Below are positions 38,932-42,157 of a stretch of 64,000 nt of DNA, one piece after another. The position numbers were made by a program, and so were the translations under genes. The DNA comes from Bacteroidota bacterium (GTDB taxonomy: Bacteria; Bacteroidota; Ignavibacteria; Kapaibacteriales; UBA2268). Positions within the stretch are counted from its first letter, which is position 1, and every line of letters begins with the position of its first letter. The notes under the pieces are model-generated. The model was not told the origin of the DNA. It saw only the letters and a program-made list of their open reading frames with translations, and searched no databases. Location of the stretch: positions 186,001 through 250,000 of the forward strand of contig JAJXYC010000013.1 of NCBI GenBank assembly GCA_021780815.1. Reading direction: 5' to 3'.

Positions 38932-38939
38932 TAATTTTG
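38932..38939 (+). promoter_or_regulatory. Candidate -7 element (TAATTTTG) for the gene at 39045
   Basis: TAnnTTTG match about 106 nt before the preferred ATG. It includes the TTG at 38937 that could be mistaken for a start. Confidence 0.35.
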
Positions 38940-39044
38940 TATTCAGCAAAATTGCTAATTCAAAAAAGTTTATCTTTCAAATGTTCAGCAATCTATTTAC
39001 TAACAAAGTTAAGTTTTAAAATTAAAGCAAAAGTAAAAAAAACT

Positions 39045-40148
39045 ATGAAAAAGATTTTCAAGATTATTTTATACGTATTCATAATTATATTTGCATTGAT
39101 TGGATTTGGTTTAACTACTGCATACTTTGCTGTTAAATTCCATATAACTGATGACCCAGGCAATGTTGATGTCAATGATAGGTTATATAAAGAAATAGCG
39201 GAAAAAGATTTTTCCAGTCATAATAAGGATTCTACTTATTTAAATAAATTAGACCCAGAATTAGCAAAAAACTATTTGAACTTGCTTGTTCTAAGCAAAT
39301 TTTATCCTTATAATGCAAAAGTAATTTTGAATGCAGTCTCAAATTTACAAGATAAAGATATATTTTCAAAGTTACTTTATGCTTTTTCTTCTCATATTAA
39401 GCATCAAGATGAATATATTCATCTATTAAGCACAATGCAAAGTTTGTATGAGCAACCAGTTACTAAAGATACATTAGAAAATATTTATGAGTGGATGAAT
39501 ATTCCAGAATGGAATGATTTAAAAATTGCAATTACCAAAGACAAAAAAATGATAGATAGTGCTTCATATTTAGCAGGAGTTGAACCAAGAATAGTTGTTT
39601 GTTGTCTAATTGGTGAACAAATTCGCTTATTTAATTCTGACCGTGAAATATATAAAAAAGTAATTGGACCTTTAAAAATTCTTTCAGTAGAAAATAATTT
39701 TTCATTAGGAATAACAGGAATTAAAGATTTTACAGCAAAAAGTATTGAAAGCAATTTAATTGATTCTACTTCAATATTTTATTTAGGTAAAAAATATGAA
39801 AATATACTTGGAGATGTAAAAAATCTCACTGATAGTTCCAGATATTATAGATTTGTCAATGTTAGAAATCACTTTTATCAATATTTATATACCGCACTTT
39901 ATTTAAAGGAGATCCAAACCCAATGGAAAAAGATGAATTACGATATTTCTAATCGTCCGGAAATTCTTACAACTTTGTTTAATATCGGTTTTAATGGTTC
40001 TCGTCCCAAGCCTAACCCGCAAGTTGGAGGCGCACAAGTGAAAGTCCATGGACAAAGTTTCACTTTTGGAGGTATAGGTTTTGATTTTTACTATTCAGGT
40101 GAATTAACAAAAGAATTTCCTTATTTAGAGAAGAAATTTTGGAATTAA
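39045..40148 (+). CDS. Inner-membrane-anchored protein with possible lysozyme-like domain
   Basis: A 367-residue protein anchored by one N-terminal helix (residues about 5-27, FKIILYVFIIIFALIGFGL), with the rest predicted periplasmic. The stretch EPRIVVCCLIGEQIRLF followed about 30 residues later by FSLGITGIKDFTAKSIE resembles the catalytic Glu and the S-x-G-x-x-x-I-K-x-x-TA motif of lytic-transglycosylase-like folds. This is inference, not a firm family match. The frame runs upstream to a TTG at 38937, but ATG 39045 is preferred because the signal anchor starts there. Convergent with the tatD operon. Confidence 0.65.
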   Translation: MKKIFKIILYVFIIIFALIGFGLTTAYFAVKFHITDDPGNVDVNDRLYKEIAEKDFSSHNKDSTYLNKLDPELAKNYLNLLVLSKFYPYNAKVILNAVSNLQDKDIFSKLLYAFSSHIKHQDEYIHLLSTMQSLYEQPVTKDTLENIYEWMNIPEWNDLKIAITKDKKMIDSASYLAGVEPRIVVCCLIGEQIRLFNSDREIYKKVIGPLKILSVENNFSLGITGIKDFTAKSIESNLIDSTSIFYLGKKYENILGDVKNLTDSSRYYRFVNVRNHFYQYLYTALYLKEIQTQWKKMNYDISNRPEILTTLFNIGFNGSRPKPNPQVGGAQVKVHGQSFTFGGIGFDFYYSGELTKEFPYLEKKFWN

Positions 40149-40223: not shown

Positions 40224-40961
40224 TTAAAAAAGTGGAGGATACCAGATTATTCCAAAACGTGGAATTGAGAAGAAACTAGTAAATTCACTTGGTTTATTGT
40301 AGTTTGTTGGGTCAGTGTAATTGTATCTTGGGTCGTAATCTAATTTTGTTGAGCCAGTAACAAAGTTTAATCTCCATTCAGCATTTAAAACAAAAAGACC
40401 TGCTCCACTGATAGGTATATTTGCAAAAAATCCTAAACCGAAGAGCATACCATACTTATTATCTATCAAAATAGTTTTTTTATTAGTAAGAAAGTTGTAC
40501 TTGGAAGAAGTTTTATTGGTATATGAAATTCCTGTAAGAGCAAAGAAATTAACTCTGCTGTAAGGATTTGCAATAAAGCCGATTGCAGCTTCGTATAAAT
40601 TACTTTTAATTGGGTCTAAAATACCGGGTGCATCAATAGCTGGCTTTTTATCTTCAAAATGCAAATAAGATGCTTGAATGAATGTCCAACTTAATGGATG
40701 GTATATAATATTTCCACCATAAGTAAAAAGTCCATCGTGTGAAACATCTTGGTCGCTTGGTTTATAAGTATCGACAACAGTATTTGTTCCAAGAACAAAA
40801 CCAATTCCAAGAACTTTATTTATATATTCATGTTTAGGTTGAATATTAGTTGTATCTTCATAATCTTGCTGGGCATAAAGATTTGTAAATGCAAATAAAA
40901 GCCCAACAAAAAGGACAAATATTGATAACCTAAAAAAAACTTTGGCTGTTTTGGTTGTCAT
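40224..40961 (-). CDS. Outer-membrane beta-barrel protein started inside the tatD frame
   Basis: A probable independent product of 245 residues from the ATG at codon 242 of tatD. AGAGG lies 9 nt upstream, within the TatD codons for EEV. The first 31 residues read as a normal signal peptide: MTTKTAKVFFR (basic), then a hydrophobic core (LSIFVLFVGLLFAF) and a cleavage-like NLYAQ. The body has strands such as VLGIGFVLGTNTV, YGMLFGLGFFAN and LFVLNAEWRLNFV, as in small porin-like barrels. No family name. A signal peptide in the middle of a cytoplasmic nuclease would not work in a fusion, so internal initiation is the better reading. Confidence 0.7.
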   Translation of the reverse strand: MTTKTAKVFFRLSIFVLFVGLLFAFTNLYAQQDYEDTTNIQPKHEYINKVLGIGFVLGTNTVVDTYKPSDQDVSHDGLFTYGGNIIYHPLSWTFIQASYLHFEDKKPAIDAPGILDPIKSNLYEAAIGFIANPYSRVNFFALTGISYTNKTSSKYNFLTNKKTILIDNKYGMLFGLGFFANIPISGAGLFVLNAEWRLNFVTGSTKLDYDPRYNYTDPTNYNKPSEFTSFFSIPRFGIIWYPPLF

Positions 40962-41684
40962 TTGAATTACCTCTTCAAGATTTATTGATTTAATTTCTGA
41001 AATTTTTTCAGCAATATATTTTAAATATTTTGGTTCGTTTCTTTTACCCCGAAAAGGAATAGGCGACATATATGGCGAATCAGTTTCTAACATAATTCTA
41101 TCAATAGGAGCTTGCTTTACTACTTCTCGTAAAGCATCTGCTTTTTTAAAGGTTATATTGCCAGTAAAGGAAACATTAAAGCCAAGTTCAATAACTTTTT
41201 CCATCATTTTTATATCACTTGAAAAACAATGTAGAACTCCTTTCAATAATCCATCCTGTTGTTCTTTTAAAATTTCAAAAATATCATTATCTGCTTCTCT
41301 ATTATGGACGATTATTGGTAAGTCAAATTTTTTTGCTAATTCAATTTGTTGGATGAACACTTTTTTTTGAATCTCTTTGGGCGAAAAATCGTAGTAATAA
41401 TCCAAACCAATCTCTCCGATAGCTTTTACTTTTGGTCTAATTGCATATTCTTCAATTTGTGAAATTATGTGTTGTGAAAATTCATTAGAATTATGAGGAT
41501 GTATTCCTATTGTACAGAACAAATTTGGGTATTGAATAGCTAAATTATACATTTTTTCAAATGTTTTTGATTCTATGGCAGGCATTATTATGTATTCAAC
41601 TTTTTCAGCAAATGCATTATGAATAACTTCTCCAATGTCTTCATTGAATTCATCAGAAAAAATGTGTGCATGTGTATCAACCAT
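40224..41684 (-). CDS. tatD: TatD family metal-dependent DNase, reading frame runs on into an outer-membrane protein
   Basis: Residues 1-252 are a complete TatD: metal ligands His5/His7 (DTHAHIF), Glu91 (IGEIGLDYYYD), His127 (PIIVHNRE), His152 (VLHCFSS) and Asp202 (LETDSPYMSP), ending at the usual TTKxAKVFF tail. TatD enzymes are 3'-5' DNases/RNases in DNA repair and quality control. Unusually there is no stop: the same frame passes into a signal peptide and a 215-residue barrel-like protein, giving 486 codons. An 8-T run on the coding strand (40932-40939) lies at the junction; one more T would give an immediate TAG. Its start overlaps the bcp stop by one base (TAATG), so it is coupled to bcp in the dnaX-bcp-tatD operon. 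Confidence 0.85.
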   Translation of the reverse strand: MVDTHAHIFSDEFNEDIGEVIHNAFAEKVEYIIMPAIESKTFEKMYNLAIQYPNLFCTIGIHPHNSNEFSQHIISQIEEYAIRPKVKAIGEIGLDYYYDFSPKEIQKKVFIQQIELAKKFDLPIIVHNREADNDIFEILKEQQDGLLKGVLHCFSSDIKMMEKVIELGFNVSFTGNITFKKADALREVVKQAPIDRIMLETDSPYMSPIPFRGKRNEPKYLKYIAEKISEIKSINLEEVIQMTTKTAKVFFRLSIFVLFVGLLFAFTNLYAQQDYEDTTNIQPKHEYINKVLGIGFVLGTNTVVDTYKPSDQDVSHDGLFTYGGNIIYHPLSWTFIQASYLHFEDKKPAIDAPGILDPIKSNLYEAAIGFIANPYSRVNFFALTGISYTNKTSSKYNFLTNKKTILIDNKYGMLFGLGFFANIPISGAGLFVLNAEWRLNFVTGSTKLDYDPRYNYTDPTNYNKPSEFTSFFSIPRFGIIWYPPLF

Positions 41685-42157
41685 TATTTTTCTTGTAATT
41701 TATTTAATGCGGCTCTAACTTCTTCTATATGTCCCTCTACTTTTACATTTTTTTTTATCCATTTAATATTGCTTTGCGGGTCTAAAATAAATGTTGAACG
41801 TACTACTCCGATATATTTCTTGCCATACATAGATTTTTCACCTAAAATTCCATAAAGATTGCATATTTCTTTGTTTTCGTCGGATATCAATCGAAAGTTT
41901 AAGTCAAATTTATTTTTAAAATTTTGATGAGACTTTACCGAATCAGGGCTAACCCCAATTACTTCGGCATTTAATGCAGATAATTCTGAAAAATTATCTC
42001 TAAACGAGCATGCTTCTTTTGTGCAACCTGATGTGTTGTCTTTGGGATAAAAATATAAGATTACCCATTTCCCTTTAAATTCATATAAACTAATATCGTT
42101 TCCTTTATCATCAGTTGCATTAAAGTTCGGGGCGATTTGTTCTAATTGTAAATCCAT
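41684..42157 (-). CDS. bcp: Thiol peroxidase / bacterioferritin comigratory protein (Bcp)
   Basis: A 157-residue peroxiredoxin. Peroxidatic Cys45 and resolving Cys50 (NTSGCTKEAC) have the same five-residue spacing as E. coli Bcp (atypical two-cysteine type). It reduces hydrogen and organic peroxides with thioredoxin. It lies 23 bp after dnaX and overlaps the tatD start by one base. Confidence 0.95.
   Translation of the reverse strand: MDLQLEQIAPNFNATDDKGNDISLYEFKGKWVILYFYPKDNTSGCTKEACSFRDNFSELSALNAEVIGVSPDSVKSHQNFKNKFDLNFRLISDENKEICNLYGILGEKSMYGKKYIGVVRSTFILDPQSNIKWIKKNVKVEGHIEEVRAALNKLQEK

Follow-up and report, generated by a model that had tools for sequence, protein, structure and literature searches.

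One reading frame for a TatD nuclease and a predicted outer-membrane barrel: a stop-less fusion conserved in a little-studied bacterial order, with a putative in-frame internal start

In-frame internal initiation in bacteria, in which a second start in the same frame gives rise to a shorter protein, has been described in Salmonella, where it produces N-terminal proteoforms in 26 genes (PMC11005335). For E. coli, that paper cites Meydan et al. for 42 genes with in-frame internal starts. The same principle is proposed here for a tatD gene, with two differences. The short forms of Salmonella and E. coli are generally N-terminally truncated copies of the same protein, whereas the short form of the present gene would be a separate, exported outer-membrane protein. 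Furthermore, unlike in those cases, the internal ribosome-binding site is shared by several families and, where the start codon has shifted, has shifted with it.

Two proteins can also be obtained from one frame after translation: the cytochrome b/c1 precursor encoded by fbcH of Bradyrhizobium carries an internal signal sequence and is split once it has been made. We know of no internal start in fbcH, and its first protein is a membrane protein, whereas the first protein here is a cytosolic nuclease. For the combination of TatD and a barrel, full-text literature searches found no precedent. What is new at this locus is that in-frame internal initiation would turn the tail of a cytosolic enzyme into the start of an exported protein unrelated to it, an arrangement fixed across an order of little-studied bacteria. 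Because gene annotation allows a frame only one start, a gene nested in the frame of another is easily overlooked; at this locus sequence alone exposes such a gene, through its deep conservation, through selection at the codon level and through a ribosome-binding site that has relocated. Labelling the fused gene only as 'TatD family hydrolase' would leave an outer-membrane protein unseen in almost all genomes of the order.

The window, by which we mean the whole stretch of 64,000 nucleotides that was analysed, contains the fused gene as one open frame of 486 codons on the minus strand. Its features and those of its upstream neighbour are as follows.

41684..40224, minus strand: whole fused open reading frame comprising TatD, signal peptide and barrel, 486 aa, with its stop at 40226-40224
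40932..41684, minus strand: TatD metal-dependent nuclease part, residues 1-251 (PF01026, TIGR00010)
40969..40973, minus strand: internal Shine-Dalgarno sequence GAGGT, 8 nt from its last G to the internal ATG
40959..40961, minus strand: internal ATG start, residue 242; ATG in 34/41 family members
40872..40961, minus strand: predicted signal peptide, residues 242-271, MTTKTAKVFFRLSIFVLFVGLLFAFTNLYA, cut before Q272
40227..40871, minus strand: predicted mature 8-stranded outer-membrane beta-barrel, residues 272-486 (AlphaFold2, Foldseek)
41684..42157, minus strand: peroxiredoxin gene (bcp-like) upstream of tatD, its stop overlapping the tatD start (TAATG)

An earlier note on this DNA had read the TatD part as complete, with the frame then entering a second protein whose ATG at 40961 lies in the last TatD codons behind a well-spaced ribosome-binding site. 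The analysis agrees: PF01026 and TIGR00010 cover residues 1-252, no stop follows, and the ATG is residue 242 with GAGGT 8 nt upstream. The further proposal of the note, one frame with two functions and an internal ribosome-binding site and start, is backed by conservation and codon selection across relatives. The overlap of the peroxiredoxin stop with the tatD start makes a shared transcript of the two genes likely. Convergent with the fused gene lies an open reading frame of 403 aa (38937-40148, plus strand), for which Pfam gave no match above cut-off.

The TatD part matches PF01026 over residues 1-252 with E 3.8e-86 and 289 bits against a cut-off of 27, and TIGR00010 with 286.9 bits against a cut-off of 206. 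D3, H5, H7, E91, H127, H152 and D202 are invariant in 29 fused relatives, and all of these except D3 we take to be metal ligands. Judged by its domain and metal-ligand residues, the N-terminal part is a full TatD. It has both in common with the TatD family DNA exonucleases (PF01026, TIGR00010), unlike which it has no stop of its own and shares its tail with another protein.

Beyond TatD the frame stays open: a hydrophobic stretch that ends with NLYA-QQ is followed by 215 more residues. A hydrophobic core is found at the junction in 103/103 parsed fusions and an A/S-Q motif in 97/103, while Q272, the residue after the predicted cut, is invariant in the 29 fused relatives; residues 242-271 thus look like a signal peptide. 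The part that follows is a predicted 8-stranded outer-membrane barrel. Its AlphaFold2 model has a mean pLDDT of 91 and eight long strands, the top Foldseek matches of this model include OmpA, Ail, NspA, OmpX and OmpW, and Pfam OMP_b-brl (PF13505) gives matches, albeit weak ones, in 9 of 29 relatives. The predicted fold is like that of the 8-stranded barrels of the OmpA/OmpX/Ail type, but identity to them is only ~10%, and unlike them this barrel family occurs, among the genomes searched, in the present group alone and never apart from TatD. When the whole fusion is modelled, both domains are well defined and the signal region (256-286) falls below pLDDT 50 and is unstructured.

How widely is the missing stop shared? 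The search covered 60 relatives first and then 391 genomes of the class as well as 103 genomes from the order with a completeness of at least 90%. Among the 103, the frame is open from TatD to the barrel in all 99 genomes that cover the junction, which represent 10 families. The earlier note had suggested inspecting related tatD loci and had stated that a stop separating the two parts in relatives would speak against its reading; such relatives were looked for, none turned up among the 99, and the stop-less layout proved to be conserved throughout the order. In three genomes (G026, G234, G015) the match lies wholly to one side of the junction, in short open frames and probably owing to contig ends, and one (G002) gave no match to the fused gene. 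One genome with a full fusion, G366, also holds a short second TatD-like piece (C596:11182-11376, model positions 204-269) with an internal TAG, which is a fragment or a contaminant.

The barrel profile matched 34 of 395 genomes of the phylum, all of them from the order or from family f13 and all within a long TatD-barrel frame; an unfused barrel was not found in these 395 genomes. The same fusion occurs beyond the order in family f13 of the same class (barrel profile comparison E 1e-26). In family f19 (L169-L171, L240-L242) a putative signal peptide follows TatD, and between it and a barrel-like domain of only weak similarity (E 5e-6, probability 86) lies a highly charged, coil-like stretch of ~80 residues with repeated RxDSI motifs. 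In the other families examined, TatD is unfused or joined to a radical SAM domain. Two loci of the window's own family, f1, come from genomes with public names, an Ignavibacteria MAG and HGW-Ignavibacteriae-4 (phylum Ignavibacteriota). In the TatD tree a single branch, of modest support (77/90), separates all rows fused to the outer-membrane protein from the rest. Several separate fusion events were considered and are unneeded, as the tree fits one origin, with one change for the fused TatDs.

Selection on the internal site can be separated from selection on the protein by looking at codon choice. In a scan of 482 codon columns over 41 fused genes of f1, each scored against its own usage, the Glu codon that forms the internal GAGG is the most biased column of all: it is GAG in 28/31 genes against a background of 24% (z 23.1; the next column reaches z 8.8), and although raw counts are inflated by relatedness, the signal survives thinning to one genome per genus (GAG 17/20, p 1.5e-8). 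With this distance between first and second column, chance is excluded for the internal site. The Val that follows this Glu uses only GTA or GTT (z 6.7), and replacement of the Glu often leaves AGGT intact, in the form AAG-GT, CAG-GT or AGG-GT. Met stands at -10 in 34/41 fusions of the family. In family f2, genus g24 and locus L027 the ATG lies 8 codons further upstream, at -18, with its own Shine-Dalgarno sequence (GGAG or GAGGT) and a spacing that is again 8 nt; ATG and Shine-Dalgarno sequence co-occur at the two sites, -10 and -18, with Fisher values of 5e-11 and 1e-11.

Synonymous simulations point the same way. A Shine-Dalgarno sequence with an in-frame start at the junction occurs in 40/41 fusions of f1 (simulated mean 16.8, maximum 24), in 17/17 of f2 (mean 5.7, maximum 9) and in 10/12 of a third set consisting mainly of f8-f10 (mean 4.9, maximum 9). 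Taken over all families, 69/103 fused TatDs have the pair of Shine-Dalgarno sequence and ATG compared with 0/33 TatDs that are not fused to the barrel (p 3e-13), and an ATG lies in the junction region of 96/103 compared with 3/33; only one unfused TatD has an ATG at the column of residue 242. Folding of the mRNA is minimal at the internal ATG and is there weaker than in synonymous variants in 28/34 genes, a higher count than at the six other positions tested. Shine-Dalgarno sequences are enriched at ordinary gene starts in most of these genomes; in G027, of genus g24, they are rare at other gene starts, as judged from 17 ORFs only. For a promoter of consensus type inside tatD there was no excess over shuffles. 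On these comparisons, the Shine-Dalgarno sequence and its start are selected beyond the protein sequence in f1, f2 and the f8-f10 set, and an internal start that would give the exported barrel alone is strongly supported for the window's family and f2.

The site is not shared by all fusions. Families f3, f4, f5, f7, f13 and f19 have no excess of Shine-Dalgarno-start pairs over the synonymous simulations, and 7/103 fusions have no ATG at the junction, including all 5 parsed genes of f5, which keep the predicted signal peptide with no ATG within the last 19 codons. The internal start is therefore not universal. In f5 and the families without the site, signal peptidase may free the barrel from the full-length product, or a start without a Shine-Dalgarno sequence or ATG may be used. 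The loci in question are L207, L208, L212, L218, L223, L230, L236 and L237 in f7 (no junction pair) and L216, L219, L227, L229 and L232 in f5 (neither pair nor ATG).

Very probably, then, one frame serves two proteins: TatD-through-barrel from 41684 and the barrel alone from the internal ATG. Ribosomes starting at 41684 would make TatD and, meeting no stop, run through the signal sequence into the barrel. Other ribosomes would begin at the ATG at 40961, guided by GAGGT within the TatD coding sequence, and would yield the barrel by itself, headed by an N-terminal signal peptide of the ordinary kind. This precursor would be exported by Sec, cut by signal peptidase before Gln272 and inserted into the outer membrane. 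The last ~10 codons of TatD would act as its C-terminus and as the start and basic n-region of the signal peptide, and the codons just upstream of them as the ribosome-binding site. We infer that translation and export take place in this way and, because the stop is missing, that the full-length form is also made. Every ribosome that finishes TatD would enter the export signal, so the TatD of this order should exist as a fusion, as a membrane-tethered fragment or as both; signal peptidase may cut the full-length product into a membrane-tethered TatD and a free barrel. The two products belong to different compartments, which raises two questions: how does the cell tolerate, sort or split a nuclease when each full copy carries an export signal and a barrel at its end, and why has no searched lineage parted the two?

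Could the frame work without internal initiation? Only the whole fusion would then be made, with its internal hydrophobic segment as a signal-anchor, and signal peptidase would release the barrel from it, leaving TatD tethered to the membrane. The continuous frame, the cleavage motif conserved everywhere and the five f5 genes with a predicted signal peptide and no ATG all suit such a polyprotein. As the sole explanation it is nevertheless unlikely, for it fails on the synonymous selection of GAGG, the Met at -10, the constant 8 nt spacing and the relocation of the Shine-Dalgarno sequence with its start. Splitting may occur alongside internal initiation and possibly acts alone in f5, whose genes are a natural test of splitting without it.

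Quite improbable is a true two-domain protein in which TatD remains part of the barrel protein and acts at the membrane. The lack of stops across 10 families, a barrel never seen unfused and invariant metal-ligand residues would be expected of it, but the segment joining the domains looks like a signal peptide, carries a conserved cleavage motif and is unstructured in the model. Nor does the missing stop need a functional fusion: with the barrel's start lying within tatD and in frame with it, a stop that separated the two would abolish the barrel. This constraint can be enough to preserve the open frame, whose conservation therefore proves no function for the fused protein. The chance that a miscounted base in the T8 run (40939-40932) conceals the true stop is negligible: one extra T would indeed create a TAG after TatD, but relatives lack the run and still read through the junction, so that sequencing error is ruled out, and slippage on the T8 is rejected because the run is not conserved.

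For the dual-output frame we can sketch a history, though only tentatively. It may date from the ancestor that the order shares with two further families, with TatD always made as a membrane-tethered precursor and the internal start setting the dose of the barrel independently; some families would have lost this start and use signal-peptidase splitting alone. A stop as the ancestral state in the class was considered and rejected, as the stops found after TatD in L139, L137 and L066 precede other proteins and never the barrel.

TatD has entered other arrangements in the class as well. A second kind of fusion adds an in-frame C-terminal domain with a CxxxCxxC radical-SAM-like motif, for example NRCNADCVFCDRKG. 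It was seen at L057, L058, L065, L140, L141, L143, L144, L146, L150-L154, L172 and L174-L181, in families f14, f16, f18, f20, f21, f23, f24, f25 and f28-f31, and at L137 the radical-SAM-like part lies in another frame after the TatD stop. In L139 (f31) and L066 (an Ignavibacteriae MAG), an ordinary TatD stop is followed by an exported-looking protein of HEAT-like repeats, in frame in the former and in another frame in the latter.
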